Positions 12,720 to 63,941 of a stretch of 64,000 nucleotides of DNA are shown here, piece by piece; positions within the stretch are counted from its first letter, which is position 1, and the number at the start of each line of letters is the position of its first letter. The notes below the pieces were generated by a model, which saw only the letters and a program-made list of their open reading frames with translations, was not told the DNA's origin and did no database searches. The DNA is taken from contig NZ_PNFP01000014.1 of assembly GCF_002940685.1 (NCBI RefSeq), forward strand, positions 124,001 to 188,000, written 5' to 3'. The stretch comes from Ensifer adhaerens. Lineage in GTDB: Bacteria > Pseudomonadota > Alphaproteobacteria > Rhizobiales > Rhizobiaceae. Position numbers and translations under genes: made by a program.

Positions 12720-13400
12720 GGCTGCCTCATTGATGAAGGTGCCGTTACATTAGCTCCAGATTTTCGGAGCTTGCTTATCTCTACTTCAACGTTGCGCCTT
12801 CGTTGTCCGTCCGCATTGATCCCCGTCAAAAATGGTCTTGATCCGCAAGATAAGACGCCTGGTCGGCTGTCTGGTTGCGACACTGCAACCTAAAGGGACG
12901 GATGTGCCACGGCGGGCTGCCTAAAGGTGACGACGAGCACATTGTTTCTGCCTGTGTCGGAAAAGCATTTCGTTTTTAGCAGTGGCAGCGGTTGGTCGGG
13001 GGTGATTGTCGCAGGCGTCGCGCGGCTGATGTCGCGAAACATAGACATTTGTGCATGGGCGCTGAGCAAATCATTGAGGTCGACGGCTGGTGGTCTGTCG
13101 TGGCAGTCGTAGCACCTGGGCGGCCTCGTCTTTTGGGTGACAGATGGCGAAAATGGCGCTCCCAAAAGGACGATTGTTGGACATACGTCGAGTTTCGCGT
13201 CACGCAACTGTCTACGAAACTCGTGGTGTTCGAGAACTCGTTCGTCGAGGTCATTTAAACCTGGCTCGGCGCCCAGTCCAGAAAGAACCCAACATCGCCT
13301 TGGACGCCGACGGGGAGGTTGGCACCGTCACTGTGCGATACTATTGCCCCGCGGCTGCCCGGACTGAAGGCGGGTGCCTTACTCGGTGCGCTACGCTTGC
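12720..13400. other. 680-bp intergenic region with a FixK-type operator
   Basis: The operator at 12816-12829 serves the CYTH gene. Weak protein-like segments occur on the plus strand around 13144-13370 (such as IALDADGEVGTVTVRYYCP), but none has a start, a family match or convincing length, so I do not call a gene. Confidence 0.35.
12816..12829. promoter_or_regulatory. FixK/FNR-type operator (TTGATCCCCGTCAA)
   Basis: Matches the FNR-family half-sites TTGAT and GTCAA with 4-bp spacing. The centre is 104 nt upstream of the CYTH start at 12719. Confidence 0.8.
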
Positions 13401-14276
13401 TTATATGGCGTTTGGCACATATCGACGCAGATGTGGACTTTCGACATAGTGGTCGGGCCGCTTCTGACGTTTCCCCAATTCCGGTTCAACGAACTTCACT
13501 TTATCGTAGGGGATGACCGAAAGGATGTGCGAGATACAGTTGATGCGCGACCTCTTCTTGTCGTCGGATCGAACAATCCACCACGGGGCGTATTCCGTGT
13601 CAGTCATCCGGATCATCTCATCGTAGGCAATGCTGTAGTCCCACCAGCGTTGATAGGATTCGACGTCCATTGGACTGAGCTTCCATTGACGAAGCGGGTC
13701 GCCGATGCGCTGACGGAACCGCCGCTCTTGTTCGTCCTCGCTGACATCCAGGAAGTACTTGAGCAGTATGATCCCGCTCTCGACGATCGCAGCTTCGAAA
13801 CGCGGAGCGAGCTCGAGAAAGCGCCGTGCCATCTCTTCACTGCAGAAGCCCATGACACGTTCGACCCCTGGGCGGTTGTACCAGGAACGATCGAATATGA
13901 CGACTTCGCCAGCGGCAGGCAGGTGCGGTATGTAACGCTGCATGTAAATCTGGCTTTTCTCCCGATCGGTCGGCGCCGGCAGGGCAACGACGCGGAATAC
14001 GCGTGGGCTGACGCGCTCGGTAATGCGTTTGATCACCCCTCCTTTTCCCGCCGCATCGCGCCCCTCGAAAATGATAACAACGCGTGCCTTTGACTTCTTC
14101 ACCCAAGCCTGCAGATGTGCGATCTCCATCTGCAGCCGATGCAGCTCCTTTCCATAATCGGCAGCCGCTGCGGAGCCCCTTACTTCCCCGAAGGGCGCGG
14201 TTTCGAGCTTTTCGCGCACTGCCCGGCCGTCTTTCTTCGACCTGTCTTTGTTCTTTCCTTTGCCGTTCTTTGACAT
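13401..14276 (-). CDS. ppk2: Polyphosphate kinase 2 (PPK2 family)
   Basis: A 291-residue cytoplasmic enzyme that moves phosphate between polyphosphate and nucleotides. Walker A GRDAAGKGG is at about residues 72-80, a PPK2 lid segment with basic residues lies around 100-115, and the Walker B-like VVIFDRSWYNR is at about 125-135. The C-terminal YAPWWIVRSDDKKRSR is also typical. The Lys-rich first 20 residues are a common PPK2 extension. The ribosome-binding site GGAGG before ATG 14276 is excellent. It probably forms an operon with the membrane protein upstream (105-bp gap) under the operator at 15165. ADP- versus AMP-specificity cannot be decided by eye. Confidence 0.93.
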   Translation of the reverse strand: MSKNGKGKNKDRSKKDGRAVREKLETAPFGEVRGSAAAADYGKELHRLQMEIAHLQAWVKKSKARVVIIFEGRDAAGKGGVIKRITERVSPRVFRVVALPAPTDREKSQIYMQRYIPHLPAAGEVVIFDRSWYNRPGVERVMGFCSEEMARRFLELAPRFEAAIVESGIILLKYFLDVSEDEQERRFRQRIGDPLRQWKLSPMDVESYQRWWDYSIAYDEMIRMTDTEYAPWWIVRSDDKKRSRINCISHILSVIPYDKVKFVEPELGKRQKRPDHYVESPHLRRYVPNAI

Positions 14277-14381
14277 GGTTTCATTTCCTCCTTTAACGTG
14301 ATCCTGTTGCTGAAACAGCCGCTTGACAGGCCAGCGGCGACTGGCGGCGCTAAATGCCTCAGACCTTGCGCGGTGCGAGCC

Positions 14382-15080
14382 TCATCCCCCTAGGGCTATG
14401 GCTATCGCCACCATGACCAGGCCAACCGCAACCATCAAAAACCCAATGCGCAGCGGCGCTCCCGCATGGCGGCCCAGGGCATAACCGGTAACGAATAGCA
14501 GACCGATCGCGATCCCATTGGATAGACGCAGAGCGTTTGTGGCGTCGCCTATGACAAAGAAGGGTGCTACGACCGGAAAGGTGAGCAGAAAGACGAGCAC
14601 GAATACAGCCAAGGCGCCGGCGAAGTCCTGTGCCTGAACTCGAATTCGCGTTTTGTCGGCGGGCAGACTATTCAGATACAGTCGGATCCGCTCGAGGTCG
14701 CTGGCTGAGAGCGCTGGCAGGACCAAAGGCGGTAAGGCGCCTGCAATGACCGATCGTGCGATTGATGCGCTCGCTGACGTCTGAACTGCCTCAACGGTTC
14801 TTTTTGAAAGTCGGTGCTCTGCTGTCGAACTCATCAAGAACATCACTGCGTCAATAATCCCCCATGCCAGGTTGCAGCTGAGCGCTCCGATGATCATCGC
14901 CTTGACATCCGCGCGGCCAGCCTGGGCGACCCCAAGCGAGCCTGTGAATGTCATCACCATGATCAATCCGAAAAGAATCTCAGCTGCGCGGTCGACCGGA
15001 TTGAGCACGCGTCGGAATGGCCACCCGCTCTTGGGTGTTGCAATGGTATCGATGACTGATTGTCTGCCACCGTCGTTCAT
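14382..15080 (-). CDS. VIT1/CCC1-like integral membrane protein
   Basis: A 232-residue protein with about five hydrophobic segments. The N-terminal RVLNPVDRAAEILFGLIMVM, followed by FTGSLGVAQAGR, resembles the first helix of VIT1/CCC1 iron/manganese transporter-like bacterial proteins (DPVDR...LFGL). The helix NLAWGIIDAVMFL and C-terminal helices follow. The central cytosolic part (about 85-145) lacks the long metal-binding helix of true VIT1, so transport activity is uncertain. A FixK-type operator centred 92 nt upstream suggests control by low oxygen, with ppk2 downstream. Confidence 0.7.
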   Translation of the reverse strand: MNDGGRQSVIDTIATPKSGWPFRRVLNPVDRAAEILFGLIMVMTFTGSLGVAQAGRADVKAMIIGALSCNLAWGIIDAVMFLMSSTAEHRLSKRTVEAVQTSASASIARSVIAGALPPLVLPALSASDLERIRLYLNSLPADKTRIRVQAQDFAGALAVFVLVFLLTFPVVAPFFVIGDATNALRLSNGIAIGLLFVTGYALGRHAGAPLRIGFLMVAVGLVMVAIAIALGG

Positions 15081-15164
15081 TGCGAGCCTCGACCGTCAAA
15101 AATGGAGGTAAAGCCATCAGACTTTTAGTTGACTCTACTATGCCTTCGACGGCGCGCGCTTAAA

Positions 15165-15178
15165 TTGATCCTCGTCAA
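15165..15178. promoter_or_regulatory. FixK/FNR-type operator (TTGATCCTCGTCAA)
   Basis: The centre is 92 nt upstream of the VIT-like gene (15080, minus) and 217 nt upstream of the MscS-type gene (15389, plus). It more likely serves the minus-strand ppk2 operon. Confidence 0.8.
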
Positions 15179-15388: not shown

Positions 15389-17494
15389 ATGAAGGCAATT
15401 GTGCCCAGTTTTCCGTGTTGCCGGGGTATCTGGATCGCCCTTATTGCGGTGGTCGTTTTTTCAGTTACGCCCGAAATCTCGTTGGGAGCAACCAGTCTAT
15501 CAGTTGGGGAGACGGACCCGCCGCCCGAGAAAGTGCGGCAGTTTCTCGATCTTGCAAACAACCCGGAGGTCAAATCGTGGCTGGAGGGTAAGGTCGCTGT
15601 GCCAACTCCGGTCGCGGAAGCTTCGATTGCGGACGTGATCTCCGATTGGGGAGCAGCCGTTAAGGGCAGAGTTGCTGCTGTCGTCGGTGCAATCGATCGA
15701 GTGCCAGACGAGATCTCGAGTTCTTCCGCAGTATTTGTGCGTGACGTAAACGCCGGCAGGCCCGGCCTGGTCCTAATCATCTTTGGAGCCTTGCTTGCCG
15801 TCGGCTTCGGCGCCGAGCGGCTAATCTTGGGTGTGCTCGCCAGCCGCAACACAGACTGGTCGAGCGCGGATCCGGTTCAGGGGACCATGTCGCGCGCCGT
15901 CGCTCTGGTCACATTCTGCTTGGCAACCATTGGTCTTTACCTGTTGCTCGATTGGCCCCCCCTGCTTGGCAAGACGATCCTGCTGCTGCTTGTTGCGTTC
16001 ATGCTATTTCGATTGATCCACGGCATCGCCCGATTGCTGCTGGCTTTTGACGGCGTTGACGAAGAACCCGCAAATCAGTCATTCGTCTCTCAAGTCGGTA
16101 CGGTAGCTCGGTTCTGGCTTCGCCGTATCGATCTCGCCGCTGGTCTGACATTGGCCGGCTGGGTTGTTGTGAACGTGATGTCCTTCTTGGGTTTTTCCGC
16201 GGAGGTCACAAAGCTCGCCGCATTCGTGTTCGGGTTAGGCATCCTTGGGATCGGGATCGAGGTGGTTTGGCGGCGACCAAGGGTGACTACCTCCGTCATC
16301 GTCCGATCTCTGCTGTCTGTGTACATGGTACTTCTTTGGCTTGCTTGGGTCGGCGGACTTCTCGGGCTGTTGTTTGTCGGTATCTATTCTCTGGTCCTAC
16401 CGGGTGTTATTCGCAGCGTCGGCCGCTTGGCCCAAGCCCTGGCAAGCAGGGCGCAATTGCGCGGCGCTTTAGGGGTCTTGTTGAACGTGGTGATCGTCAG
16501 AGGCGCGCGTGCGCTGGTGATCGCCGCAGCTGTGGCATGGCTTGCCTATGCCTGGCGATTCAGTGCAGCAGCTTTGACCGGTAGCGAAGTCGGCAAGGTT
16601 GTGGTCAATGGCGCATCGAACGCAATCGTCATCCTCCTCGTGGCCGACTTGTTTTGGCAGTCGTCCAAAGCGCTCATCGCCTACCGCATGGATCTTGCGG
16701 AGCATTCCAGCGGTACCGGAGACAATCTAGCCCGAAGTGACAGGTTGCGGACCTTGCTCCCTATTTTTCGCAATACCTTGGCAGTGCTGATCGGCGTGAT
16801 CGCCATATTGACGATTTTGTCTGGATTGGGCGTGCAGATTGCGCCCCTTCTTGCCGGCGCCGGCATATTTGGTGTTGCTATCGGCTTCGGCTCGCAGACC
16901 CTTGTAAAGGATGTCCTCAGCGGGGTCTTCTACATGCTAGACGACGCATTCCGCGTTGGTGAATACATCCAGAGCGGCAGCTACAAGGGAACCGTCGAGT
17001 CGTTCAGTCTACGGTCGGTACGATTGAGGCACCACCGCGGACCTATTTTCACCGTCCCGTTCGGAGAACTTGGTGCGGTCGAGAATATGAGCCGAGACTG
17101 GGTGATCGACAAAATGACGATCAACGTCACTTATGATTCCGACATCGAGTTGGCCAGCAAGCTCATAAAGAAGATCGGTCAGGAATTGGCCGCGGACCCG
17201 GAATTCGCGGCAGACACGTTGCAGCCCTTGAAAATGCAGGGCGTCGATAGCTTCGGGGATTTCGCGATCGTCCTGAGGCTCAAACTCATGACCAAGCCCA
17301 ACGCACAGTTTGCCATCAAGCGGCGCGCCTTCATGATGATCAAGAAGGTCTTCGATGAAAATGGCATCAAGATCGCCGTGCCTACAGTCCATGTGGAAGG
17401 AAGTGGCGAATCTGCGGCTGCGGCCGCCCATCAGGTTCAGCAGTCGGCAAAAGCGGCACAGGTTGCCGAGGCGGCGGGCCAAGCCGTGGCTTGA
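15389..17494 (+). CDS. MscS-family mechanosensitive channel, large form
   Basis: A 701-residue inner-membrane channel that releases solutes on osmotic down-shock. It has a signal-like N-terminus (to about residue 35), a periplasmic region, roughly ten hydrophobic helices, then the MscS core: the pore helix AGAGIFGVAIGFGSQTLVKD (about residues 489-508), the following beta-domain (VGEYIQSGSYKGTVESF) and the C-terminal alpha/beta vestibule. An Ala/Gln-rich tail ends the protein. The frame also offers TTG 15383; ATG 15389 is preferred. A DUF2254 membrane protein follows 69 bp downstream on the same strand and is probably co-transcribed. Confidence 0.88.
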   Translation: MKAIVPSFPCCRGIWIALIAVVVFSVTPEISLGATSLSVGETDPPPEKVRQFLDLANNPEVKSWLEGKVAVPTPVAEASIADVISDWGAAVKGRVAAVVGAIDRVPDEISSSSAVFVRDVNAGRPGLVLIIFGALLAVGFGAERLILGVLASRNTDWSSADPVQGTMSRAVALVTFCLATIGLYLLLDWPPLLGKTILLLLVAFMLFRLIHGIARLLLAFDGVDEEPANQSFVSQVGTVARFWLRRIDLAAGLTLAGWVVVNVMSFLGFSAEVTKLAAFVFGLGILGIGIEVVWRRPRVTTSVIVRSLLSVYMVLLWLAWVGGLLGLLFVGIYSLVLPGVIRSVGRLAQALASRAQLRGALGVLLNVVIVRGARALVIAAAVAWLAYAWRFSAAALTGSEVGKVVVNGASNAIVILLVADLFWQSSKALIAYRMDLAEHSSGTGDNLARSDRLRTLLPIFRNTLAVLIGVIAILTILSGLGVQIAPLLAGAGIFGVAIGFGSQTLVKDVLSGVFYMLDDAFRVGEYIQSGSYKGTVESFSLRSVRLRHHRGPIFTVPFGELGAVENMSRDWVIDKMTINVTYDSDIELASKLIKKIGQELAADPEFAADTLQPLKMQGVDSFGDFAIVLRLKLMTKPNAQFAIKRRAFMMIKKVFDENGIKIAVPTVHVEGSGESAAAAAHQVQQSAKAAQVAEAAGQAVA

Positions 17495-17563
17495 GTACGT
17501 TCGTCAATCTCGTGGGTAACCGCCGCCGGAGGCTCGTCGGTCCAAGGGAGGCCATGTCAAAAG

Positions 17564-18841
17564 ATGAGCTGGAATAAGTTATATGCTCTCAAGAGCTATA
17601 TGCGTGCCTCCTTGTGGATCATCCCATTTTTTGCGCTCATAGCGCAGCAGGCCTTTTTTCGTGCAGTTCTTACTTCCGAGAGATGGACACCGTGGGTCCC
17701 GCCTTGGCCCTTGGGGACCGATGGCACGGTTGCTGCAATGCAGGCGATTATAAGCTTGGCGCTTTCGTTTCTCGTTTTCACGTTCGGCTCACTGCTTGTT
17801 GCGATACAAATAGCAAGCGGACAGCTTACGCCGCGGATCATCGCGACCACGCTGCTGCGAGATAATGTTATCCGGTTTACCGTCGGCTTGTTCATCTTTA
17901 CGCTGCTCTTCGCCATCGGCGCGATAAGTCGCGTGAATGCGTCGGCTCCGGCCTCGATAGTGTGGATCTCCGCGGCCCTTGGCGTCCTCTCGCTGGCAGC
18001 ATTTCTTTACTTGATTGATTATTCGGCTCGATTGTTGCGCCCCATCAGCATCATTCACAGTGTCGCCGAGCAAGGCTTCACCGTCATCGAGAACGTGTAT
18101 CCTGAGTGCTGGAAGGAGACCGTGAGCAAACTTCAGGCGCGTGACACGCTTGGAAAGCCAGACGAGGTCGTTTTACATGCCGGTTCGTCCGATATCATTC
18201 TTGCTGTCGACGTGAAGTCCCTGCTGATCCAAGCAACCCAGGCGGACGGTGTCGTTGAGCTGGCAGCGCGCGTCGGCGACTTCGTGGCATGTGGCCAGCC
18301 TTTGTTTCGGCTATATGGTGGTGCTCGGACAATCCCTGCCAACGACCTTGGGAGTAGCGTAGCGTTTGGGCGTGAGCGAACCATCGAGCAGGACCCAACT
18401 TTCGCTTTCAGGGTCATTGTCGATATTGCTACGAAGGCACTCTCAAAAGCGATCAACGATGCGACGACAGCCGTGCTGGCAATCGACCAGCTGCATCGCT
18501 TACTGGGCAGCGTTGGCGGACGCGATCTGCGCAATGAATTTCTGTGCGACGGGAGCGGACGCCTGCGTGTGGTGTATCCAACACCGGACTGGGAAGACTT
18601 CGTACAGCTCACTTGTCGCGAGATCAGGATTTATGGAGCAGAGAATCTTCAGATCGCGAGGAGGCTTCGTGCCATGATCGACAATCTCGAAAACGTGCTG
18701 CCCGAGATCCGGAAACAGGCGCTGCGGGCGGAGCGCGATCTGCTCGACCGGATGATCGACAAGGCCTACCTCCTACCTGAGGACGCTGCTTTGGCACGCA
18801 TTGCCGATACGCAGGGGTTGGGGGGCTCTGTGGAGGGATAA
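17564..18841 (+). CDS. DUF2254 family membrane protein
   Basis: A 425-residue protein of unknown function. Four transmembrane helices lie in the first 155 residues (for example SLWIIPFFALIAQQAFF and AIISLALSFLVFTFGSLLVA), followed by a soluble C-terminal part with the DUF2254 segments SGQLTPRI, IIDIA-like FRVIVDIATKALSKAINDA and TTAVLAIDQL. The family often lies beside channel or stress genes. A GGGAGG ribosome-binding site precedes ATG 17564. It follows the MscS gene closely, consistent with a shared envelope-stress role (inference). Confidence 0.82.
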   Translation: MSWNKLYALKSYMRASLWIIPFFALIAQQAFFRAVLTSERWTPWVPPWPLGTDGTVAAMQAIISLALSFLVFTFGSLLVAIQIASGQLTPRIIATTLLRDNVIRFTVGLFIFTLLFAIGAISRVNASAPASIVWISAALGVLSLAAFLYLIDYSARLLRPISIIHSVAEQGFTVIENVYPECWKETVSKLQARDTLGKPDEVVLHAGSSDIILAVDVKSLLIQATQADGVVELAARVGDFVACGQPLFRLYGGARTIPANDLGSSVAFGRERTIEQDPTFAFRVIVDIATKALSKAINDATTAVLAIDQLHRLLGSVGGRDLRNEFLCDGSGRLRVVYPTPDWEDFVQLTCREIRIYGAENLQIARRLRAMIDNLENVLPEIRKQALRAERDLLDRMIDKAYLLPEDAALARIADTQGLGGSVEG

Positions 18842-18877: not shown

Positions 18878-19684
18878 TCACCATTCCATCATGTTAAAGC
18901 TATGTAGGATGATTTGAAGACCGAGTGCTGCTTGGGTGACGCCGAGCACCACCGCCAAGACCTGAAGCGAGGTTCCAACCCATTTTAGTATGGCATCGGC
19001 GAACAGCATCGCGAGCCAATCGAGCGCAAGGATCGACAAGACGATAGCGGCCACGGTGAGGCCTTCCGCTTGGCGATTCCCTGCGAGTGTCGCAAAGACG
19101 ATTACCGCCGCGATCCCGTAGGGTGTAACTATCGTTGGAAAAGCCAGCGGCGAGAAGGCCAGTTTTATGTCCGGCGCGCGGTCAGGTGTCAAAGAGTGAT
19201 CCGTTAGGCTTGCCGATTGCTGCAATATGGTTCGTAGCGCCACCAGGAAAAGAATGATTCCCCCGGTCATGGCTAGAACTGGCAGGGAAATCTCAAAGTT
19301 CTCGAGCATGGTGCGCCCAAGAAGGCCGGCGACCGCCAGCGCGCCGGCCGAGAAGAATATTGCTCTTTGGGCGACCTGGCGTCGAAGGGTTGGCTCCCAA
19401 GTCTTGGTTATCGTCACGAACGGCACCAGGATCTTGATCGGACCAAGCATCAGAAAAAGCATGAAGAACACTTTTCGTGCGCCGAACTCAACGTCTGGCA
19501 TCGCTGCACCCTCTGGCGCTTGCGCGAAAGACTGAACCGGGAAGCAGACCAGCATCACAATCAGTGTGGTGATCAGACCAATTGGACAGGGCAAGTGGCG
19601 CTGTTTGTGGAATGCAGGCGAGCAGGTATTGCAGGCAGGCGTTGTTGCAAATTTGGCAGTGATCTTCCGCAGCCATGGGATCAT
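18878..19684 (-). CDS. MarC-family integral membrane protein
   Basis: A 268-residue protein with a signal-like first helix (residues about 35-55) followed by six hydrophobic helices typical of MarC/YhgN. Family-like segments are FFMLFLMLGPIKILVPF, GGIILFLVALRTIL and AFPTIVTPYGIAAVIVF. MarC proteins were once linked to multidrug resistance, but their function is unsettled. Start chosen at ATG 19684 (MIPWLRKITAK) with GGGAG upstream; the frame is open to 19831. It is convergent with the DUF2254 gene and divergent from a universal stress protein gene across a 332-bp gap. Confidence 0.82.
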   Translation of the reverse strand: MIPWLRKITAKFATTPACNTCSPAFHKQRHLPCPIGLITTLIVMLVCFPVQSFAQAPEGAAMPDVEFGARKVFFMLFLMLGPIKILVPFVTITKTWEPTLRRQVAQRAIFFSAGALAVAGLLGRTMLENFEISLPVLAMTGGIILFLVALRTILQQSASLTDHSLTPDRAPDIKLAFSPLAFPTIVTPYGIAAVIVFATLAGNRQAEGLTVAAIVLSILALDWLAMLFADAILKWVGTSLQVLAVVLGVTQAALGLQIILHSFNMMEW

Positions 19685-20016
19685 CGATCGTCTCCCGACA
19701 CGGCGAGGGTCTCTATGGAGTCGCCAGGTTCGATTCGCGTCAGTTTTCAAAAGAACGTGCTTGATCAATTCTGGCTTCAACATCGGGCAAAGTCTCTCGA
19801 AATTGACGCTACGCAGGTTGTGAGCCCACAAACGCGACGTCTGAAAACGACCTTTTCAGAAGTTCGCTCGCTGTCGGCTTAACCCAGGCCCATGACCCGA
19901 GCTGTATTTTTCTTGCCCACTGAATAAATAAGTGAAGGCTAAATTAATTGATCTGGGTCAAGGCGGGCTTAGGGCGACACGGGTACCTTGATTCCGGTTG
20001 AAATCTGGAGGCTCTC
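19685..20016. promoter_or_regulatory. 332-bp divergent promoter region
   Basis: This gap separates marC (minus) and the universal stress protein gene (plus). It contains the operator at 19948-19961 near the plus-strand gene and an A/T-rich stretch (19910-19950), unusual here, that may hold promoter elements. No gene is seen. Confidence 0.5.
19948..19961. promoter_or_regulatory. FixK/FNR-type operator (TTGATCTGGGTCAA)
   Basis: Centred 62 nt upstream of the universal stress protein start at 20017, an ideal position for class II activation with a short leader. Confidence 0.85.
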
Positions 20017-20457
20017 ATGTTCCGCAACATCCTCGTACCCACCGACGGCTCACCGCTCGCGACGCTGGCCGTGGATGCCGCCATCACGTTCGCAAAGGAA
20101 GTGGGTGCGAAGATCACCATCCTTATCGTGACGGAGCCCTTTCACCTCATTTCTCTGGATGCGGAGCAACTCAGCAACACCCGGGCGCAATATGAGGCGC
20201 TTTCCGAAGTGCACGCTGCCGAGACGCTTCGCGCCGCTCGGAGCAGGGCCGAGGCGGCCGGGGTTCGCTGTGTGACCGATCAAACCAGCGCTCATGAGGT
20301 TTACCTCGAGATCATCAGAAAAGCGCAGGATATCGGCGCCGATCTGATCATCATGGCTTCGCACGGCCGCAGCGGTGTGGGCGCCTTGATCATCGGCAGC
20401 GTCGCCGCCAAAGTTCTTACGCATTCGACCATCCCCGTCCTGATATATAGGAAATAG
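20017..20457 (+). CDS. Universal stress protein (single UspA domain)
   Basis: A 146-residue UspA-fold protein. The N-terminal ILVPTDGS holds the conserved Asp, and the C-terminal nucleotide-binding signature MASHGRSGVGALIIGSVAAK, followed by VLTHSTIPVL, matches the ATP-binding G-2X-G-9X-G-S pattern. Such proteins bind ATP and support survival in growth arrest and hypoxia. A FixK-type operator is centred 62 nt upstream. An IS5-family element sits 60 bp beyond the stop, so any original downstream operon partner has been separated. Confidence 0.93.
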   Translation: MFRNILVPTDGSPLATLAVDAAITFAKEVGAKITILIVTEPFHLISLDAEQLSNTRAQYEALSEVHAAETLRAARSRAEAAGVRCVTDQTSAHEVYLEIIRKAQDIGADLIIMASHGRSGVGALIIGSVAAKVLTHSTIPVLIYRK

Positions 20458-20517: not shown

Positions 20518-21281
20518 CTAGGTGGTGGACTCATAAGCGCGAAGCCATAGCCTTGTCGAAGCGAGAGCGACAGCAGCGAGGAAGTTGCTTGCGAGCTTGT
20601 CATAACGTGTTGCGATGCGCCTGAAGTGTTTGAGTTTGCAGAAGAAACGCTCGACGAGGTTGCGTTGGCGATAGAGGCTTGGATCGACCGATCTCTGGAC
20701 CTTGCGATCGCGCTGGGTCGGGATGTGCGCGTTTCCGCCGCGCTGGCGAACCAGGTCGATCAAGTGCTGCCAGTCATAACCGCGGTCCGCAACAACGAGG
20801 GATGCCGGCAGTCCTTCGAGCAGGTCAGGTGCGACGGCTTTGTCAGAGGCCTGTCCTTGCGTGAGAGCGAGGCGAACCGGCAGCCCACGTTCGTCGACCA
20901 CCACATGGATCTTGCTGGTCAGTCCTCCACGAGAACGGCCGATGGCGTGATCCGGGCCCCCTTTTTTCCGCCGGCAGCGTGCTGATGGGCGCGGACGATG
21001 GAGGAGTCGATCAGTTGCATCGACTGAGGGGACGCTGCCGCGAGAGCCTCGAAGACCCGCAGCCACACGCCCGCCTTGGCCCATCGGTTGTAGCGATTGT
21101 AGACCGTCGTGTACGGGCCGTAACGCTCTGGAAGGTCGCGCCACGGCGAGCCTGTTCGCAAAACGTAGAAAATCGCGTTCAGAACGCGCCGATCATCCGT
21201 TCGTGCCACACCGCGTGGCTTGTTGGGAAGCAGCGGCGCGATCAGCGCCCATTCCCGATCTGTAAGGTCGAACCGTGCCAT
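20518..21281 (-). CDS. IS5-family transposase, made by -1 frameshifting
   Basis: The first frame (ATG 21281) encodes the helix-turn-helix part MARFDLTDREWALIAPLLP up to SIVRAHQHAAGGKKG. The second frame continues with the DDE domain (SRGGLTSKIHVVVDERGLPV, LVVADRGYDWQHL, RNLVERFFCKLKHFRRIATR). They meet at the slippery heptamer A AAA AAG (complement of 20961-20967), phased exactly for a -1 slip. The stop codon TAG lies at the element's edge and uses bases of the CTAG target. Normal size and intact motifs suggest an active element. Confidence 0.9.
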
Positions 21282-24307: not shown

Positions 24308-24321
24308 TTGATCCGCGTCAA
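24308..24321. promoter_or_regulatory. FixK/FNR-type operator (TTGATCCGCGTCAA)
   Basis: Lies between the divergent ADH-GNAT gene (157 nt from centre to start) and the pentapeptide-repeat gene (125 nt to ATG 24440). Confidence 0.8.
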
Positions 24322-52851: not shown

Positions 52852-52875
52852 GATATCCTCCCTTTGGCGGTCAGC

Positions 52876-52906: not shown

Positions 52907-52921
52907 GGAGCGCCGAGCTCG

Positions 52922-53588: not shown

Positions 53589-53602
53589 TTGACGCCCGTC
53601 AA
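53589..53602. promoter_or_regulatory. FixK/FNR-type operator (TTGACGCCCGTCAA)
   Basis: Between hsp20 (149 nt to 53446, minus) and the small membrane protein gene (97 nt to 53693, plus). Confidence 0.85.
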
Positions 53603-54908: not shown

Positions 54909-54953
54909 ATAGTCGGTTCATGAGATTGTGCCGCAAGTCCACCGAACGTGCTT

Positions 54954-54967
54954 TGACGGCCGTCAAG
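54954..54967. promoter_or_regulatory. FixK/FNR-type operator (TTGACGGCCGTCAA, perfect palindrome)
   Basis: Shared between the glucokinase-like gene (52 nt) and the PEP synthase gene (64 nt to 55025). A fully symmetrical 14-mer. Confidence 0.88.
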
Positions 54968-55024
54968 GTCAGACCCCACCTCGGCGTTTATGATTTGCCG
55001 GTTCCTGACTGCTGGAGGCTTGGG

Positions 55025-57431: not shown

Positions 57432-57752
57432 TCATTCCTCGGCTTCGAGCTGCTCGGCCGCTACATAGAGGAGCGCGCGCATTTTCTCCTGCAACATGGC
57501 CTTGTCGGCCGCCACGTTGGCAGCGCGCAGATCATCGAGAACCTTCAGCAAGACGTCATCGTCTCCTGGATCGGTTTGACCAGCCGTGATCACCTCTTCC
57601 ACATAGCCTGATACATCTGTGCGACCGATAACCTGCGCCGCCCACCTCGCCAGAATGCGATTGCGTCGATCGCGAACCCGGATTGCTCTTTCGAAGTCCA
57701 GGAAATACTTCTCTTCAAGAGCTTTTTGACGTTCGTTCAATGCGGTCATCAT
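57432..57752 (-). CDS. F1-ATPase inhibitor zeta-type protein (DUF1476 paralogue)
   Basis: A 106-residue helical protein that matches DUF1476, the zeta subunit that blocks ATP hydrolysis by alphaproteobacterial F1Fo-ATP synthase. Family-like parts are ALEEKYFLDFERAIRVRDRR, then NRILARWAAQVIGRT, VEEVITA, DDDVLLKVLDDLRAA and EKMRALLYVAAEQLEAE. Start at ATG 57752 or 57749, 22-25 bp after the groEL stop, so it lies in the groEL operon under the operator at 59449. This placement suggests that ATP hydrolysis is shut down under oxygen limitation (inference). The housekeeping copy should be elsewhere. Confidence 0.85.
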   Translation of the reverse strand: MMTALNERQKALEEKYFLDFERAIRVRDRRNRILARWAAQVIGRTDVSGYVEEVITAGQTDPGDDDVLLKVLDDLRAANVAADKAMLQEKMRALLYVAAEQLEAEE

Positions 57753-57774
57753 GATGCTCCGACATCTTTTGGGG

Positions 57775-59397
57775 CTAAGCTTGCATGCCGGCCTCGACAA
57801 GACCGTCCCTTGCCGGCTCCGGTATTTCTGTCATGGTGGCTTCGGTGAGCAATAGAACGCTTGCGACCGACACCGCGTTTTCAAGCGCTACGCGAACGAC
57901 CTTTGTGGGATCGATGATGCCGGCCGACACGAGATCGACATACTCCTTCCGCCCGGCGTCGAAACCGTAATTGCCTTGCGCCTCCATCATCTTCGCCACG
58001 ACGACGCCACCATCAGTGGACGAGTTCTCCGCGATCTGGCGCGCTGGAAGTTCGAGCGCGCGCTTCAGAATCTGCACACCCGTGCGCTCGTCGCCTTCAC
58101 ATGCCCTTTCCTCATCGGTAATGGCATCTATGCATCGCAAGAGGGCGAGGCCGCCTCCAGGAAGAATTCCTTCGGCTACCGCTGCCTTGGTGGCGCTGAT
58201 GGCGTCGTCGAGGGCTTCCTTCTTTGACTTGAGTTCCGCTTCCGTGGCAGCACCCACCTTTATGACGGCAACCCCGCCAGAAAGTTTTGCCAGTCGCTCC
58301 TCGAGTTTGTCTCGATCGTAATCACCCGTCGTCGTGGAGATTTCCCGCCTTATCTGGTCGGCGCGGCCGGCAATTGCCTTCTTGTCTCCCGCGCCGCCGA
58401 TGATCGTCGTCGTATCCTTTGTGATGACCACCCGTTCGGCGCGGCCTAGTTGTTCGGCTGTCACCGTATCCAGTTTGATGCCCAATTCTTCGGAAATCAG
58501 CTGGCCCCCGGTGAGTATCGCTATGTCTTGAAGCAGCGCCTTTCGCCGGTCGCCGAAACCGGGCGTCTTCACGGCACAGTTTCTAAGTGTCCCCCGCATC
58601 TGGTTGACGATCAGCGTGGCGAGCGCTTCTGTTTCAACGTCTTCGGCGATGATCAGCAACGGGGTTCCGGACTTGGCGACGGCCTCAAGCAGGCCGACGC
58701 AGTCCTTCAGTGATGTGATCTTCCGGTCAAGAAGCAGAATGACAGAATTTTCAAGCGACACTTCCATCCGCTCCGTGTCCGTGACGAAGTAGGGGGAAAG
58801 ATAGCCGCGATCGAACTGCATACCTTCGAGTACATCAAGGACCGTTTCGGTAGATTTAGACTCTTCGACGCTGATGACACCTTCGTCGCCGACCCGCTCC
58901 ATTGCTTCCCCGATAAGGGTGCCGATATGCGTGTCGTTGTGCGCCGAGATCGTTGCGACCTGTTCTTTTTCGCGCTTTGAGGAAACGGGGCGCGAATTTC
59001 GTTTGAGTTCAGAAACGGCGCGCTTGAGCGCCCGGTCCAGACCTCGCTTGATATCGATCGCGCTTGCGCCGGCCACGACGTTGCGTAGTCCGTCGGCGAA
59101 GATCGCGTGGGCAAGAATGGTCGATGTGGTCGTTCCGTCGCCGACGATTTCGCCGGTCTTTTCTGCCGCCTGCCGCAGCATCCGCGCACCGAGATTTTCC
59201 TCCGGGTCCTTGAGATCGAATTCCTTGGCGATCGTCACGCCGTCATTGCAAACGATCGGCGACCCCCACTTTCTCTCAATCAGCACGGATTTAGATCGCG
59301 GTCCGAGGGTAACCCGAACCGCATCGGCGAGCTGAGCTGTTCCTTTCAGGATCTTTTCGCGCGCGGCTGAGTGGAAAAGAACTTGCTTGTGCGCCAT
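57775..59397 (-). CDS. groEL: GroEL chaperonin, orphan paralogue
   Basis: A 540-residue 60-kDa chaperonin. The ATP-binding motifs GDGTTT and the segments LGARMLRQAAEKTGEIVGDG and GFGDRRKALLQDIAILTGG are intact. The Gly-Gly-Met tail is missing; the protein ends EAGMQA. It starts MAHKQVLFHSAAREKILKG rather than the usual AAKDVKF. There is no groES beside it, so it must use a co-chaperonin from elsewhere. It is divergent from a usp gene and followed by a zeta-type ATPase inhibitor. The operator is centred 58 nt upstream of ATG 59397. Confidence 0.93.
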   Translation of the reverse strand: MAHKQVLFHSAAREKILKGTAQLADAVRVTLGPRSKSVLIERKWGSPIVCNDGVTIAKEFDLKDPEENLGARMLRQAAEKTGEIVGDGTTTSTILAHAIFADGLRNVVAGASAIDIKRGLDRALKRAVSELKRNSRPVSSKREKEQVATISAHNDTHIGTLIGEAMERVGDEGVISVEESKSTETVLDVLEGMQFDRGYLSPYFVTDTERMEVSLENSVILLLDRKITSLKDCVGLLEAVAKSGTPLLIIAEDVETEALATLIVNQMRGTLRNCAVKTPGFGDRRKALLQDIAILTGGQLISEELGIKLDTVTAEQLGRAERVVITKDTTTIIGGAGDKKAIAGRADQIRREISTTTGDYDRDKLEERLAKLSGGVAVIKVGAATEAELKSKKEALDDAISATKAAVAEGILPGGGLALLRCIDAITDEERACEGDERTGVQILKRALELPARQIAENSSTDGGVVVAKMMEAQGNYGFDAGRKEYVDLVSAGIIDPTKVVRVALENAVSVASVLLLTEATMTEIPEPARDGLVEAGMQA

Positions 59398-59448: not shown

Positions 59449-59462
59449 TTGATGGGCGTCAA
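59449..59462. promoter_or_regulatory. FixK/FNR-type operator (TTGATGGGCGTCAA)
   Basis: Centred 58 nt upstream of groEL (minus), giving that side of the divergent region its own site. Confidence 0.85.
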
Positions 59463-59490: not shown

Positions 59491-59504
59491 TTGACGGCGG
59501 TCAA
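59491..59504. promoter_or_regulatory. FixK/FNR-type operator (TTGACGGCGGTCAA)
   Basis: Centred 70 nt upstream of the usp gene at 59568 (plus), 42 bp from the groEL-side operator (four helical turns). Confidence 0.85.
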
Positions 59505-59567: not shown

Positions 59568-60374
59568 ATGATTTACAACACGATAATGGTAAGCTTGAGT
59601 TTGCACGAAAGTGTTTCGCGGCAGCTAAGATTTGCGCGTGGCGTGGCGTCGCGTTTCGAAGCAACACTCATCGGCTTCGCAGCCGGCGACATTCGTATCA
59701 TAACGGCGGCGCCCCCTGGCGTGGTCATGGACGACGAATTCATGCGCCTCGAAGCGATCGATATCGAACGCCGTCTGGAGGTGCTCAGGCGAGAGTTCGA
59801 GGCCGAAGGCGGAGCCGTGGATCTGCTGCGGACAAGCGTTGGTGATCCAACGAAGGATCTCGCGACCGCTGCTCGGTTGGCCGACCTAGTTATCGCAGGC
59901 ATATCGCAAGTGGGAAGCGAGCAGGTTGACATCGGTGAACTGATCCATTCGGCGGGCCGCCCCGTCCTTATCCCCAGAGCCGACCTTGAGCCGCTCGCTG
60001 CCCACAAGGTCGTTGTTGCCTGGAAGGATACGCGCGAGTCCCGGCGCGCCGTGGTCGATGCGATGCCTTTCCTCGTTCATGCCCGTGAGGTCCTTGTCGC
60101 ATCAGTCGAAGATCAAGGAAAACGCCGCGGCGTGGAAACACTGAATGATGTTGTCCGCCACCTGATCCATCACGGTGCAAGAGCCCGGGGCGAGGTCTTC
60201 AGCAGCGATGGGCCTTCAGATGGCGAGACCCTGATCAATATTACCAAGCAGTTTGGTGCGGATCTGATCGTTTCGGGAGCGTATGGCCACAGTCGCTTGC
60301 GCGAGTGGCTGGTGGGCGGCGTTACCCGATCGCTGCTGGGCGAAACCTCTCTCCATCGCTTGATGTCGTCGTGA
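59568..60374 (+). CDS. Tandem-domain universal stress protein
   Basis: A 268-residue tandem UspA protein. The second half contains SGAYGHSRLREWLVGGVTRS, the nucleotide-binding loop; the first half begins MIYNTIMVSLSLHESVSRQL without the usual Asp-Gly loop. It is a paralogue of the proteins at 36071 and 52021. ATG 59568 is used; the upstream bases are weak as a ribosome-binding site. The operator at 59491 is centred 70 nt upstream. The COG2187-type kinase gene begins 59 bp downstream. Confidence 0.9.
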   Translation: MIYNTIMVSLSLHESVSRQLRFARGVASRFEATLIGFAAGDIRIITAAPPGVVMDDEFMRLEAIDIERRLEVLRREFEAEGGAVDLLRTSVGDPTKDLATAARLADLVIAGISQVGSEQVDIGELIHSAGRPVLIPRADLEPLAAHKVVVAWKDTRESRRAVVDAMPFLVHAREVLVASVEDQGKRRGVETLNDVVRHLIHHGARARGEVFSSDGPSDGETLINITKQFGADLIVSGAYGHSRLREWLVGGVTRSLLGETSLHRLMSS

Positions 60375-60433
60375 GCCACCCGCCAAGCTGATCGCGCGAA
60401 CTGTGTCGATAAGGCGCAAGAACAGTGTGTTCA

Positions 60434-61435
60434 ATGTCCGCTCTGCATGAGAAGATCCGCTTTCTCAGCGACCCGGCATCCTATCCTGATCGGCCATCGA
60501 GGGTCGAAACCCGGGAGACCCATATGTCATGGGTCTTCCTGACGGATGATTGGGTGCTGAAGCTGAAGAAGCCGGTCAAGACGTCTTTTCTTGACTTCAG
60601 CACGATAGATAGCCGTCACTTCTTTTGTTGCGAAGAAATTCGCCTCAATCGCCGATTGGCTGAGGAAACCTATAGAGGCGTCAAACCTCTCTATGCAGAC
60701 CTTTCCGGCAACCTCACATTTGAGAACTCTGGGAGAGCTGCCGATTGGCTCGTGGAGATGAGGCGGCTCCCCGAAGCCGACATGCTGGATCAGCGCATAA
60801 AGGCGGGTGACCTCGCACCGACGGAGCTTATTGGCGTGGCTGAGAAACTTGTGCGCTTCTACGCCGGCTGTCGGCCGGAGAGCGTCGATGGGCATGTGCG
60901 CCACCTCATGGATGAACTCGACATCACGCGAAAGATCTTGCTGCGGCCGGAGTTCGATCTGGAGTCCGAAGGCGTTGCTGCACTGCTGGAAGGCATCGGT
61001 CACGGATTGCAGGTGATGCGGTCAAAAATCGAGGAGCGGATCAAGAAGGGGTGCCTGGTGGAAGGACATGGCGACTTGCGGCCAGAACACATCTGCCTCG
61101 TTAGGTCTCCCCAGATCATCGATTGCCTGGAATTCAACCGGTCCATGCGCCTCGTCGACCCATATGATGAGATCGGTTACCTTGCTCTCGAATGTGAGGT
61201 CTTGGGCTCGGGCTGGATCGGTCAATTCTTCCTCACGGCTCTGGAGCGCACGGTTGGAAATCGCCCTTGTGATCGCTTGATGGGTGTCTTTGGCGGTTTC
61301 CGTGCCTTGTTGCGGGCCCGGCTCTGTCTTGCTCATCTTCTTGAAACACCAGCGCGCCGCCCCGAGAAGTGGCGACCGCTCGCGCTCACCTACCTCAAGA
61401 TGGCAAGGGTTCGCTTGTCACTCGTCGTCTCCTGA
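60434..61435 (+). CDS. Aminoglycoside phosphotransferase-like kinase (COG2187 type)
   Basis: A 333-residue protein-kinase-like fold enzyme. The N-lobe begins EKIRFLSDPASYPDRPSRVE and has the candidate ATP-binding Lys in DDWVLKLKKPV. The catalytic loop is EGHGDLRPEHICL (HGD-L-x-x-x-H type), and a metal-binding Asp follows in IDCLEFN. Substrate unknown. A mycobacterial relative (Rv2004c) is in the DosR dormancy regulon. Start ATG 60434 is the better of two close Met codons. Its last 18 bp overlap the convergent prs-type gene. It is probably co-transcribed with usp. Confidence 0.85.
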   Translation: MSALHEKIRFLSDPASYPDRPSRVETRETHMSWVFLTDDWVLKLKKPVKTSFLDFSTIDSRHFFCCEEIRLNRRLAEETYRGVKPLYADLSGNLTFENSGRAADWLVEMRRLPEADMLDQRIKAGDLAPTELIGVAEKLVRFYAGCRPESVDGHVRHLMDELDITRKILLRPEFDLESEGVAALLEGIGHGLQVMRSKIEERIKKGCLVEGHGDLRPEHICLVRSPQIIDCLEFNRSMRLVDPYDEIGYLALECEVLGSGWIGQFFLTALERTVGNRPCDRLMGVFGGFRALLRARLCLAHLLETPARRPEKWRPLALTYLKMARVRLSLVVS

Positions 61436-62395
61436 AAGTGCTGCAAGCGGAACGCCGGTATGCAGGCGGCGAATGGTTTCGGCAAAAAGCGGTGCGCTGC
61501 TTAAGACCGTCACACAATCGCGCAGGAGGTCTTCGGGTATATGGAATGGAGAAGCTGAGTCCGTTACGATCGTCCTGTCGATCGCAGGGTGGGCCAGAAC
61601 CGCCTCGCAGCCCCGGTCAAAGAGCGCATGGGCGGCAAGGGCATAAACTGAATTCGCACCCCGCTGCCGGCAGGCTTCGGCTGCCCTGAGCATTGTTTTT
61701 CCCATCCCGATCATATCGTCCACGATAAAAACGCTCGCGCCTTCGACGTCACCTGCAAACAGGTGACCCGAGACGATCCCACCGCTGCGACGCTTTTCCA
61801 TGATCGCAAGTTGAGCCTCCTTGCCTGACAGACGCTCGTAATGTTCCCGCAGGAGTTGCGCGCGTTTTATGCCGCCGGCGTCGGGCGATAATACCATCGT
61901 CCGCTCGGGGCCGGAGAGACTTGCAATGGTCCTGCTAAAAAGTTTGCGGGTGTCGAGGTGAACCGTTGCACAGCGGAAGGCGTTCTGAAATGCCGAAAGG
62001 TTGTGGACGTCCAAAGTCACGACTGTATCGATGCCCACCGCCTCGAAGAGTTGTGCCACGTATCGTGTCGTCACCGGGTCGCGTAACTTGGTCTGTCTGT
62101 CTTTGCGAGAGTAAGCAAGATAGGGCGCGACGGCGGTTACGCGCGCTGCGCCGTGTTCGCGGCATGCGGCTGCGAAAAAGAGCAATTTACACAGCTTGTC
62201 ATTCGCCGAACCTTCCGGCGAACCATTCAAGGTATGTATGATGAAAACGTCCCTGCCGCGCACGCTGACAAGCGGACGCGCCTTGTGCTCCCCGCCTTCA
62301 AAGTCACGCTCTTCGTGCTCGGCAAGGGCGACTTGGAGTTCGTCAGCAATGGCTCTTCCAAAAGCCATCGTTCCGTTGAGTGCGAAAATCTTCAT
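61418..62395 (-). CDS. prs: Ribose-phosphate pyrophosphokinase (PRPP synthetase) paralogue
   Basis: A 325-residue enzyme that makes PRPP from ribose 5-phosphate and ATP. Present are the KRAQ/SPDAGG segment (VLSPDAGGIKRAQLL), the flexible KRR loop (IMEKRRSGG) and the PRPP-binding loop VDDMIGMGKT. This last differs from the usual VDDMIDTGGT at several positions, so it is a divergent paralogue with possibly altered kinetics. Start chosen at ATG 62395 (MKIFALNG), only 42 nt from an operator centre. It follows the HhH gene in a minus-strand series. Confidence 0.9.
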   Translation of the reverse strand: MKIFALNGTMAFGRAIADELQVALAEHEERDFEGGEHKARPLVSVRGRDVFIIHTLNGSPEGSANDKLCKLLFFAAACREHGAARVTAVAPYLAYSRKDRQTKLRDPVTTRYVAQLFEAVGIDTVVTLDVHNLSAFQNAFRCATVHLDTRKLFSRTIASLSGPERTMVLSPDAGGIKRAQLLREHYERLSGKEAQLAIMEKRRSGGIVSGHLFAGDVEGASVFIVDDMIGMGKTMLRAAEACRQRGANSVYALAAHALFDRGCEAVLAHPAIDRTIVTDSASPFHIPEDLLRDCVTVLSSAPLFAETIRRLHTGVPLAALSGDDE

Positions 62396-62430
62396 GAAAG
62401 CCAGCATGATCCATGGCGCCCCGGCGTTCA

Positions 62431-62444
62431 TTGACGTCGGTCAA
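62431..62444. promoter_or_regulatory. FixK/FNR-type operator (TTGACGTCGGTCAA)
   Basis: Centred 42 nt upstream of the prs-type ATG, closer than at any other gene here. If activation is at -41.5, transcription would start at or near the start codon (leaderless), or a later start codon is used. Confidence 0.8.
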
Positions 62445-62477
62445 GGATCAAAAACTCCTTTAGGGAAAAGCTCGCGG

Positions 62478-63362
62478 TCATGCTGACGCGACCGGTTCGG
62501 CGTCGCGTTGCAACCGATGGCGTCTAACCTCGCGTTTCCCCGCTGTCGCCCCATGCATGCTGGTCGTCACGATGCTCCAGCCCTCGGGCTCGCCGTCCCG
62601 CTGATGGTAAATGACCACCCAGTCTTTCATCTTTCCCAGTTCGTGGGCACGCCTGCTGTTGGAAAACAGAACGGTGAAATGCCAATCGCCCACTTGGGAA
62701 TGCATGACAGGAAGCCAGGCTTCATGTGTCGGGTTGAACCGACGGGGGGCTATCAGGCGTAGCGCGCCCGAAGCAGCTTTGTCACGATAGGCACGGTCGA
62801 GTTCGAGCAAAAGCGCATCGGGCGGTTTGCTCGATCTTTTCCAAAGGTAAGGCGTTGATCGACGCGCGAGGCGCTCAGCCAATGCGGAAGCGATCATTTG
62901 CTTTCGCCTGGGTCCGATGCCTTTCAGTGCGAAGTTGCCGCTGTGGATGGCGTTCTCCAGGTCTTCCAGGGTCTGGAGCGTGCCGTCTTCCGCCAAGAGA
63001 CCAGCCAATCGTGGCCCCATTCCGGGAATAGTGCGAAAGAGCACCTCCGGCGCAAGTTCACCTCGCAGACTTTCCAGTTGCCCCCAGTGGCCCGTTGTGA
63101 CCATTTCGATGATGGCGCTGGCGATTGCCTCTCCGACCGCAGGCAGTGCTTCGAGGGCTTCCCGGCCTCCTTCCGCGAGAATTGCAGCGATCGGTCGGTC
63201 GAGCGCGGCGACAACGTCGGAGGCACGCCGATAGGCACGGGGTCGGAAGCTTTCCTCTCCCTGTTCCTCAAGCAAACCTGCGTATTCACGCAAGTGCCCG
63301 GCGATCACCATGTTGTCGCATCGCATGTTTTCCTCAACGATCGGACCGGTCACTCTTGCCAC
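62478..63362 (-). CDS. PolX-like helix-hairpin-helix DNA-binding protein without polymerase domain
   Basis: A 294-residue protein. Residues about 15-90 match the 8-kDa domain of family X DNA polymerases (LLEEQGEESFRPRAYRRASD; LEALPAVGEAIASAIIEMVT). HhH units follow (RTIPGMGPRLAGLLAEDG; ALKGIGPRRKQMIASAL). The C-terminal part (VGDWHFTVLFSNSRRAHELG) is not a polymerase palm and lacks the Asp triad and PHP domain. It probably binds gapped or nicked DNA. It lies 25 bp after the DUF3775 gene and 82 bp before prs. Start at M1, M13 or M18. Confidence 0.82.
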   Translation of the reverse strand: MARVTGPIVEENMRCDNMVIAGHLREYAGLLEEQGEESFRPRAYRRASDVVAALDRPIAAILAEGGREALEALPAVGEAIASAIIEMVTTGHWGQLESLRGELAPEVLFRTIPGMGPRLAGLLAEDGTLQTLEDLENAIHSGNFALKGIGPRRKQMIASALAERLARRSTPYLWKRSSKPPDALLLELDRAYRDKAASGALRLIAPRRFNPTHEAWLPVMHSQVGDWHFTVLFSNSRRAHELGKMKDWVVIYHQRDGEPEGWSIVTTSMHGATAGKREVRRHRLQRDAEPVASA

Positions 63363-63387
63363 GCCATCCTCCTACTCGCATCGAGCG

Positions 63388-63807
63388 CTACAGGCGTCCC
63401 TTCTCGTACTCCTGGCAAGACTCTCCAAACGCGGCCATTGCCTCTTCCAGGTAATCCGCAAGAAGCGGTGTTCCGATCAAATAGGCGGCCGTGTGTTCAT
63501 TGTGGGCGTCTGAGGCCTCCGCGCGAATTCGCTGCCAGTCGTCCACCGTGTCGTCTCCGCGGCCGAGCCAGCAAAGGGCGACGAGGTCGATCTTCTCGTC
63601 CTCGTTCAACCCGGAGATCGTTGTTTCCAGCTCGGATTCGACGGGATCATCCGGTCGGTCTTCGAGCACGGAGATCATATTGTCGTCCGTGGCATTGGAG
63701 GCAGGGTCAACGTCGGAAACAACATCCTTGGCGTCGAATTCGCGCGCCTTGATGATGAGATAGCAAACTGTATCGGGCGAGATCGACAAGTCACAGGTTC
63801 TGCTCAT
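63388..63807 (-). CDS. DUF3775 family protein
   Basis: A 139-residue acidic protein with typical DUF3775 parts: the start SPDTVCYLIIKAREFDAKD, a central LNEDEKIDLVALCWLGRGD and the C-terminal TAAYLIGTPLLADYLEEAMA. The function of this alphaproteobacterial family is unknown. It is first in a minus-strand series with the HhH protein and PRPP synthetase. The operator at 63928 is 127 nt upstream. Confidence 0.88.
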   Translation of the reverse strand: MSRTCDLSISPDTVCYLIIKAREFDAKDVVSDVDPASNATDDNMISVLEDRPDDPVESELETTISGLNEDEKIDLVALCWLGRGDDTVDDWQRIRAEASDAHNEHTAAYLIGTPLLADYLEEAMAAFGESCQEYEKGRL

Positions 63808-63927
63808 CTGAATTCTCCACGCTTGCAGGTTTGCCCCGCTCTCGTCTTGTCACAATAAAGGGCGTTCAACTCGGCGGGCGAACACTCCTACCTTGTTGTC
63901 ATAATCGCAGGCTTGGACCAGAGCGCT

Positions 63928-63941
63928 TTGATGACCGTCAA
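63928..63941. promoter_or_regulatory. FixK/FNR-type operator (TTGATGACCGTCAA)
   Basis: Centred 127 nt upstream of the DUF3775 gene. On the other side, AGGAGGG at 63992-63998 is a strong ribosome-binding site for a plus-strand gene starting just beyond the window, about 70 nt from the operator centre. Confidence 0.85.

Follow-up and report, generated by a model that had tools for sequence, protein, structure and literature searches.

Stress-survival block and its proposed oxygen switch

The 64-kb window analysed here (C6:124001-188000 of the Ensifer adhaerens genome G000, 7.52 Mb in 81 contigs; positions without a contig name are window coordinates) carries most of a stress-survival gene block, about 58 kb long, that looks wired for joint switch-on at falling oxygen by a relay encoded in its middle. 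We consider it probable that this island is a low-oxygen stress regulon with its own hFixL-FxkR-FixK switch, and that an FnrN-like protein encoded on contig C34 probably shares its operators; by their sequences, fixK, fxkR, the K-box between these two and hfixL are the known hFixL-FxkR-FixK cascade. From the observed sequences, sites, conservation, spacing and linkage we infer signalling, binding and expression as follows. On loss of oxygen from its haem, the hybrid kinase hFixL (37130-39019) would signal to FxkR (39917-40657), as the families of the two proteins suggest; FxkR would bind the K-box present at 39867-39882 and switch on fixK-hfixL; and FixK would in turn bind the FixK/FnrN-type operators, or anaeroboxes, ahead of about two dozen putative transcription units. 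The units so activated would encode universal stress proteins (Usps), Hsp20, GroEL, HtrA, ion pumps, PpsA, polyphosphate kinase 2 (PPK2) and others, some of them possibly expressed from class II promoters with the site centre near -41.5, and FixK may activate the cbb3 oxidase as well. At still lower oxygen the FnrN-like protein probably acts on the same sites. The operators are divided, in that the regulators have a K-box and no anaerobox and the targets have anaeroboxes.

Number and density of the operators

The anaerobox pattern TTGAYNNNNRTCAA, a TTGAY-N4-RTCAA palindrome, has 16 exact matches in the window, while 100 dinucleotide shuffles of the window gave a mean of 0.21 and at most two. 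The whole genome holds 56 exact sites (positions are given for 50 of them) and three matches to the reversed pattern, which served as control; 19 of the 56 fall within the 57.7 kb of C6:136816-194561, where the rate in the rest of the genome predicts 0.29, a 66-fold excess (Poisson 3e-28). Both comparisons, with shuffled sequence and with the rest of the genome, had been named as checks in an earlier account written from the letters alone (the sequence-only reading), which tied the sites into one oxygen regulon, and both turned out in its favour. The fifteen 14-mers that it had listed as exact all match, the one placed at 54954 starting in fact at 54953, and its further site at 35492 (TTGAGGGGCGTCAA) does have a single mismatch. 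It had overlooked the exact site at 24230 and had closed the island at 63941, whereas three of the 19 clustered sites lie at 64000 (the last base of the window), 70492 and 70548, so that the cluster extends as far as about 70.5 kb.

The background rate is itself inflated, because four of the 37 sites outside the cluster are GTTGACAGCTGTCAAC, the repABC parS sequence, arranged around repABC on contig C8. Because a FixK-like gene accompanies these four identical TTGACAGCTGTCAA sites (C8:125587-135848), they had been considered as a further regulon, a candidate that we rejected once they proved to be parS; similar copies are found in genomes G001, G002 and G005. Since parS copies match the pattern, anaerobox scans of repABC genomes overcount, and a caution is in order for any scan with this motif. 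The repABC parS consensus GTTNNNNGCNNNNAAC has no match in the window and the next 20 kb. A second, looser cluster of four anaeroboxes lies at C19:18485-35175, among genes for heavy-metal P-type ATPases, a phosphoribosyl pyrophosphate (PRPP) synthetase-like protein, a glucoamylase and an ABC/FtsX unit.

Placement, conservation and promoter geometry

The centres of all 16 exact sites are intergenic in a stretch that is only 13.3% intergenic (p 9e-15), with the start of a combined alcohol dehydrogenase-GNAT acetyltransferase (ADH-GNAT) frame assumed at 24160 and small hypothetical open reading frames (ORFs) omitted; when the longest ADH-GNAT frame and a relative's small hypothetical genes are counted as genes, 13 of the 16 are intergenic (p 6e-10). 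The sequence-only reading had put nearly all of its 16 sites 40-160 nt from a start codon. This stands for 14 of them, whose centres lie 42-150 nt away (for 13, the starts were transferred from the annotated CTYH.Ch1; for 15165, the distance was measured to the ORF start at 15080), and fails for 24308, which lies 221 nt from the start of the pentapeptide gene, and for 26910, 257 nt ahead of the cyclase gene. It was right that many sites are common to divergent genes (15165, 19948, 24230/24308, 30725, 35492, 41261, 54953, 59449/59491 and 63928/64000).

The window and the next 20 kb were aligned with four relatives; plasmid sequence was used for E. adhaerens E-60, E. adhaerens CTYH.Ch1 and Ensifer PDNC004, and for E. 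sesbaniae the sequence up to 10 kb from fixK. In this order, 14, 18, 12 and 4 of the 19 exact sites were alignable, and the consensus is kept in 48 of 48 alignable orthologous sites (28 of 76 cells being without alignable sequence), with the TTGA and TCAA bases invariant throughout; identity to the relatives is 94-99% in the site arms and 78-90% in the flanks. The one-mismatch site at 35492, ahead of a PNPOx gene, is identical in all four. In Bradyrhizobium diazoefficiens the FixK2-dependent PNPOx gene blr4240 is preceded by TTGAGGTGCATCAA (PMC9104804). The distance between site and gene in Sinorhizobium meliloti pSymA, S. fredii pSF45436d and the window is, respectively, 74.5, 73.5 and 71.5 nt for Usp, 58.5, 63.5 and 59.5 nt for HtrA, and 162.5, 156.5 and 149.5 nt for Hsp20; the two GroEL distances are 57.5 and 111.5 nt in S. 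fredii and 58.5 and 100.5 nt in the window. The agreement is not complete, as exact sites are missing upstream of several orthologs of island genes in these two species.

The published extended consensus TTGANCNNGATCAANG has a flanking G (PMC4999443), and in agreement with it the second base after TCAA is G in 31 of the 38 arms of the 19 exact sites; the corresponding counts are 3 of 16 arms at eight sites of the same genome outside the cluster and 55 of 90 arms in six loci of other species. The 18-mer CNTTGAYNNNNRTCAANG has 15 copies in the genome (reversed control, one): twelve in the island, one at parS, one on contig C23 and one before a COX1 gene adjoining a FixP gene, which marks the operon of the cbb3 oxidase, one of the classical targets. 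As CNTTGAYNNNNRTCAANG was partly derived from the island, its clustering there cannot be counted as independent support for the extended motif; such support comes from the cbb3 hit and the other species. A TANNNT hexamer resembling a -10 element lies 27-31 nt from the site centre, the spacing of class II FNR/CRP promoters, in 7 of the 30 arms that point towards a gene (with 35492 counted; 1.69 in shuffles, p 0.0005), most arms being without it; scoring every exact site in both directions gives 6 of 38 arms (p 0.017). The other species give 17 of 90 arms (4.17 in shuffles, none of 1000 reaching 17, p<0.001); the excess is seen in S. fredii, pRL9 and A49 taken singly, and p was not below 0.05 for the single loci of S. 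meliloti, LCM 4579 and E. oleiphilus. By conservation and extended consensus, and in part by promoter spacing, the sites behave as the FixK/FNR-type operators for which they had first been taken.

The relay encoded in the middle of the island

The protein encoded at 39037-39777 (minus strand) is of the FixKf type, with the E--SR recognition helix TIETVSR (ETVSR at residue 189). Its only cysteines are at 17, 130 and 229, and it has no FNR-type N-terminal FeS cysteine cluster; it therefore probably does not sense oxygen itself. Its closest solved relative is FixK2 and the relatives found belong to Ensifer and Sinorhizobium. A 17-row tree groups it with R. johnstonii FixK9a/9b, apart from the FnrN-like protein of its own genome (support 100/99); this tree omits five distant rows (the genome's own proteins on C15, C20, C3 and C8 and an R. 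johnstonii paralog), and a first tree that included the long rows did not resolve the FixK9a/9b grouping. Two further paralogs, on C14 and C1, were without matches in the first tree's search and are in neither tree. The helix, the relation to FixK2 and the place in the FixKf clade agree with the sequence-only reading that this protein is FixK-like with an E--SR helix.

Just downstream of fixK lies hfixL (37130-39019, minus strand), encoding a hybrid kinase with the order PAS-PAS(haem)-HisKA-HATPase-receiver. Its PAS domain at residues 128-255 matches the haem PAS of FixL (1dp6, E 9e-45) and retains the motifs HD-Y and IIGIGR, whose conserved His and Arg residues we take to serve in haem binding; the receiver occupies residues 516-626, and other matches in the genome that cover the PAS region are at most 34% identical. 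The gene fxkR (39917-40657, plus strand), for an OmpR-type response regulator, is divergent, and its product is 65% identical to those of R. johnstonii pRL9 27191-27907 and of the R. etli CFN 42 p42f counterpart. The pRL9 gene is fxkR9 by the coordinates of Table 1 in PMC7888657, and the FxkR K-box consensus is GTTACA-N4-GTTACA (PMC4999443, PMC7888657). Inside the 139-nt gap between fixK and fxkR lies the K-box GTTACATTCAGTTACA (39867-39882, minus strand), the only exact copy in the genome; the gap has no exact or one-mismatch anaerobox. Sixteen congeneric genomes, the present one included, hold seven exact K-boxes, each directly ahead of the gene for a FixK ortholog (identity at least 61%); the reversed K-box, as control, has six matches. 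The first arm, GTTAC, is invariant in 12 aligned upstream regions. One of the 16 genomes (G009) has FixK orthologs on two replicons (C1:946823 and C3:614124), each with an exact K-box. As for FxkR, the ortholog of S. meliloti 1021 pSymA (620374-621104) aligns in two pieces, likewise in strain 2011, and in one piece on most other S. meliloti plasmids listed.

Arguments against the reading and alternative explanations

A number of observations weigh against a FixK-driven regulon. The NCBIfam models for the FixK equivalog (Caulobacter type) and for FixL give 150.5 bits and 291.1, short of their cut-offs of 300 and 850. The exact K-box is present at seven of nine FixK orthologs and missing at two, and the K-boxes of E. 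sesbaniae and S. fredii are degenerate. One FixK-bearing genome (G013) has only 36 anaeroboxes; the FixK orthologs of Bosea (57-58% identity) have no anaerobox within 10 kb. The type of half-site (TTGAT/ATCAA versus TTGAC/GTCAA), tried as a discriminator between FixK and FnrN, gave no separation and was left unused: T/A-type half-sites occur at 1 of 19 cluster sites versus 6 of 37 others in the genome (p 0.40), their counts in genomes with and without FixK give p 0.44, genomes without FixK have them at 96 of 350 sites, compared with the island's 1 of 19 (p 0.03), and S. meliloti has them at three of seven sites. Finally, the FnrN-like protein on C34 has the same TIETVSR helix together with an N-terminal cysteine group.

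This last point feeds the strongest competitor, namely that the FnrN-like protein is the main activator at the anaeroboxes and that FixK plays a minor part or only primes fnrN, which we judge unlikely. Besides its helix and cysteines, an anaerobox at C34:447763, just upstream of its gene, speaks for it, and so does a small heat shock protein gene with an anaerobox that is FnrN-dependent in R. leguminosarum UPM791 (PMC11784457). In R. johnstonii 3841, by contrast, anaerobox genes at 1% oxygen are driven by FixK and not by FnrN; the same cascade is active there at 1% oxygen, with FnrN dominant near anoxia (PMC7888657). Furthermore, six of 16 genomes contain both FixK and an island marker, whereas FnrN-like matches (32-34% identity) are found in the others too, co-inheritance being no proof of control. 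With the same helix, the FnrN-like protein could act on the same sites, and helix and cysteines together make two-stage control likely. The claim of the sequence-only reading that the FixK at 39037 controls most of the island as one microaerobic and, more conjecturally, dormancy regulon is partly supported: right in outline, given FixK-type operators and gene kinds that depend on FixK2 in B. diazoefficiens, and incomplete, given that FixK is the last step of a cascade and that the FnrN-like protein may share in the control.

One could also suppose that the sites are real and that the unit chiefly answers nitrogen or carbon status, oxygen being secondary. In S. meliloti, in what is probably the syntenic 120-kb region of pSymA, motif-bearing genes are up in nitrogen limitation and down in polyhydroxybutyrate (PHB) mutants (PMC5596199). 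Oxygen use in these cultures could partly explain that result; the island itself contains a haem-PAS kinase and a K-box, and the same kinds of genes are FixK2-dependent at 0.5% oxygen in B. diazoefficiens (PMC9104804), so we regard this explanation as quite improbable. Chance palindromes, or partition sites of the parS kind, are a hardly credible explanation of the sites, even though the pattern does match the four repABC parS copies on C8, in view of the chance expectation, the lack of a parS consensus match in the window and next 20 kb, the mostly intergenic placement and the conservation in relatives.

Relation to known systems

A low-oxygen regulon switched by hFixL, FxkR and FixK, which remains our preferred reading, has a close regulatory model in R. 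etli and R. leguminosarum. The cascade of R. johnstonii 3841 pRL9 has the same three kinds of protein as the island, and there as here fixK-hfixL run in one direction, fxkR is divergent and GTTACA-N4-GTTACA stands before fixK; pRL9 likewise has Usp, GroEL, BON, HlyD and host-attachment genes nearby. It differs in that the pRL9 cascade adjoins fixNOQP/fixGHIS and serves symbiosis, whereas here the relay sits inside a stress island, nifH is not above the cut-off and the fixK-fxkR gap is free of anaeroboxes.

Most island genes have orthologs on the S. meliloti plasmid pSymA (identity 39-85%, mainly >60%), where an exact K-box and, within 50 kb, seven anaeroboxes are present too; in addition S. 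meliloti has FixLJ-FixK1. Its ortholog of the island FixK is presumably SMa1141. A 120-kb stretch, within which this region probably lies, has been described as the densest in FixK/Fnr motifs, with motif-bearing genes that change together and SMa1141 as candidate regulator (PMC5596199); the signal was read there as PHB/nitrogen-linked, and the sections consulted do not name hFixL-FxkR-K-box as the switch. The FixK2 regulon of B. diazoefficiens shares gene kinds with the island but is driven by FixLJ: genes with FixK2 boxes for PNPOx, GroEL5, Hsp20, Usp, host attachment and PpsA are 11- to 112-fold lower without FixK2 at 0.5% oxygen (PMC9104804). FixK2 has the redox-active Cys183, where the island FixK has Thr176. 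In gene content the island may also be likened to the lxa locus of Burkholderia cenocepacia, a low-oxygen cluster of 50 genes that encode, among others, six Usps, a heat shock protein and a BON protein, although this is a Beta-proteobacterium and the suggested regulator, BCAM0049, lies outside the locus (PMC6127331).

The components are known from rhizobia, with close precedents in S. meliloti pSymA and in the FixK2 regulon of B. diazoefficiens; among the titles listed in our literature searches, none concerns such an island in E. adhaerens. What is added here is the link of a stress island to the hFixL-FxkR-FixK relay by a unique K-box, together with a near-complete set of operators and the joint inheritance of island and switch in a genome without detected nifH. 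A large set of stress genes is thereby tied to an oxygen relay familiar from symbiosis, and a single stretch holds the sensor, the switch site and the targets. This suggests that the relay serves stress survival besides nitrogen fixation. It also offers a testable model for the packaging, and possible movement between bacteria, of a whole low-oxygen survival programme.

Distribution and co-inheritance

FixK (at least 61% identity) and the MBL beta-CASP gene of the island (at least 74%) are present in the same six of 16 congeneric genomes (Fisher 1.2e-4), and G002 has the MBL gene as short fragments only; nifH scored above the cut-off in two of the 16 and not in the genome of the window. FixK-bearing genomes hold on average 55.5 anaeroboxes and those without FixK 35.0 (p 0.0024), in part because the island adds its own sites. 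The island is carried by plasmids in E. adhaerens E-60 and S. fredii (both predicted conjugative) and in CTYH.Ch1 and PDNC004 (both predicted non-mobilizable), and lies on a 3.7-Mb scaffold in E. sesbaniae; block transfer is therefore possible. It is tempting to go further and to see here a portable oxygen-stress regulon, in which sensor, relay, activator, K-box and about two dozen target units would be co-inherited, and at times transferred, among replicons of Rhizobiaceae as a survival programme independent of nitrogen fixation, in hosts without nitrogenase, a tentative view that we entertain without favouring it.

Gene content of the island

Read from the left, the island has first a CYTH domain gene (12186-12719, minus), preceded by the anaerobox 12816-12829. 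The next unit (13401-15080, minus) encodes PPK2 and, before it, a protein that is VIT1/CCC1-like by its position in PDNC004; the anaerobox 15165-15178 lies between the ORF 14382-15080 (minus) and the unit for an MscS channel and a DUF2254 protein (15467-18841, plus), with TANNNT at 29 nt on the plus side. The membrane protein MarC (18878-19684, minus) and a Usp (20017-20457, plus) flank the anaerobox 19948-19961. The ADH-GNAT frame (22550-24328, minus, start uncertain), in which alcohol dehydrogenase and acetyltransferase domains stand in a single reading frame, and a pentapeptide repeat protein gene (24536-25222, plus) flank the overlooked anaerobox 24230-24243 and its neighbour 24308-24321. 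The weakest placement is that of 26910-26923, ahead of the adenylate/guanylate cyclase gene (25307-26659, minus). Between the unit for a Usp and a P-type ATPase with a C-terminal hemerythrin domain (27771-30677, minus) and the gene for an MgtC/DUF4010 protein (30815-32065, plus) lies 30725-30738, and the one-mismatch site 35492-35505 separates the unit for a BON protein and a cation P-type ATPase (32055-35421, minus) from the PNPOx-family gene (35561-36013, plus). A further Usp gene (36071-36904, minus) is preceded by 36969-36982.

To the right of the relay, 41261-41274 lies between the 40690 gene (minus) and the argF-MBL unit for ornithine carbamoyltransferase and the MBL beta-CASP hydrolase (41338-44029, plus), and 44649-44662 precedes the genes for an HtrA-type protease and an M50-CBS site-2 protease (44715-47206, plus). 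The anaerobox 53589-53602 precedes a unit led by Hsp20, with Usp, host-attachment, ABC, FtsX and HlyD genes (47219-53446, minus), while 54953-54966 is placed between glucokinase (53937-54893, minus) and the PpsA frame (54839-57403, plus, start uncertain). Two sites, 59449-59462 and 59491-59504, lie between GroEL with the ATPase inhibitor zeta (57432-59397, minus) and a Usp with an unnamed gene (59586-61435, plus). Finally, 62431-62444 precedes PRPP synthetase, which together with an HHH protein and a DUF3775 gene spans 61418-63807 (minus), and 63928-63941 lies between DUF3775 and the next plus-strand unit.

Rfam and tRNA searches gave no matches in the window. The fusion of a P-type ATPase with a C-terminal hemerythrin domain (27771-30095) is conserved, since the alignment with the S. 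meliloti pSymA ortholog covers 755 of 774 residues. To the left of the island lie a gene for a 1753-aa protein with fibronectin III and Ig-like repeats (1630-6891) and, after it, a Mutator-family transposase (9162-10442); a piece of a DDE transposase is found within the island, at 20518-21144.

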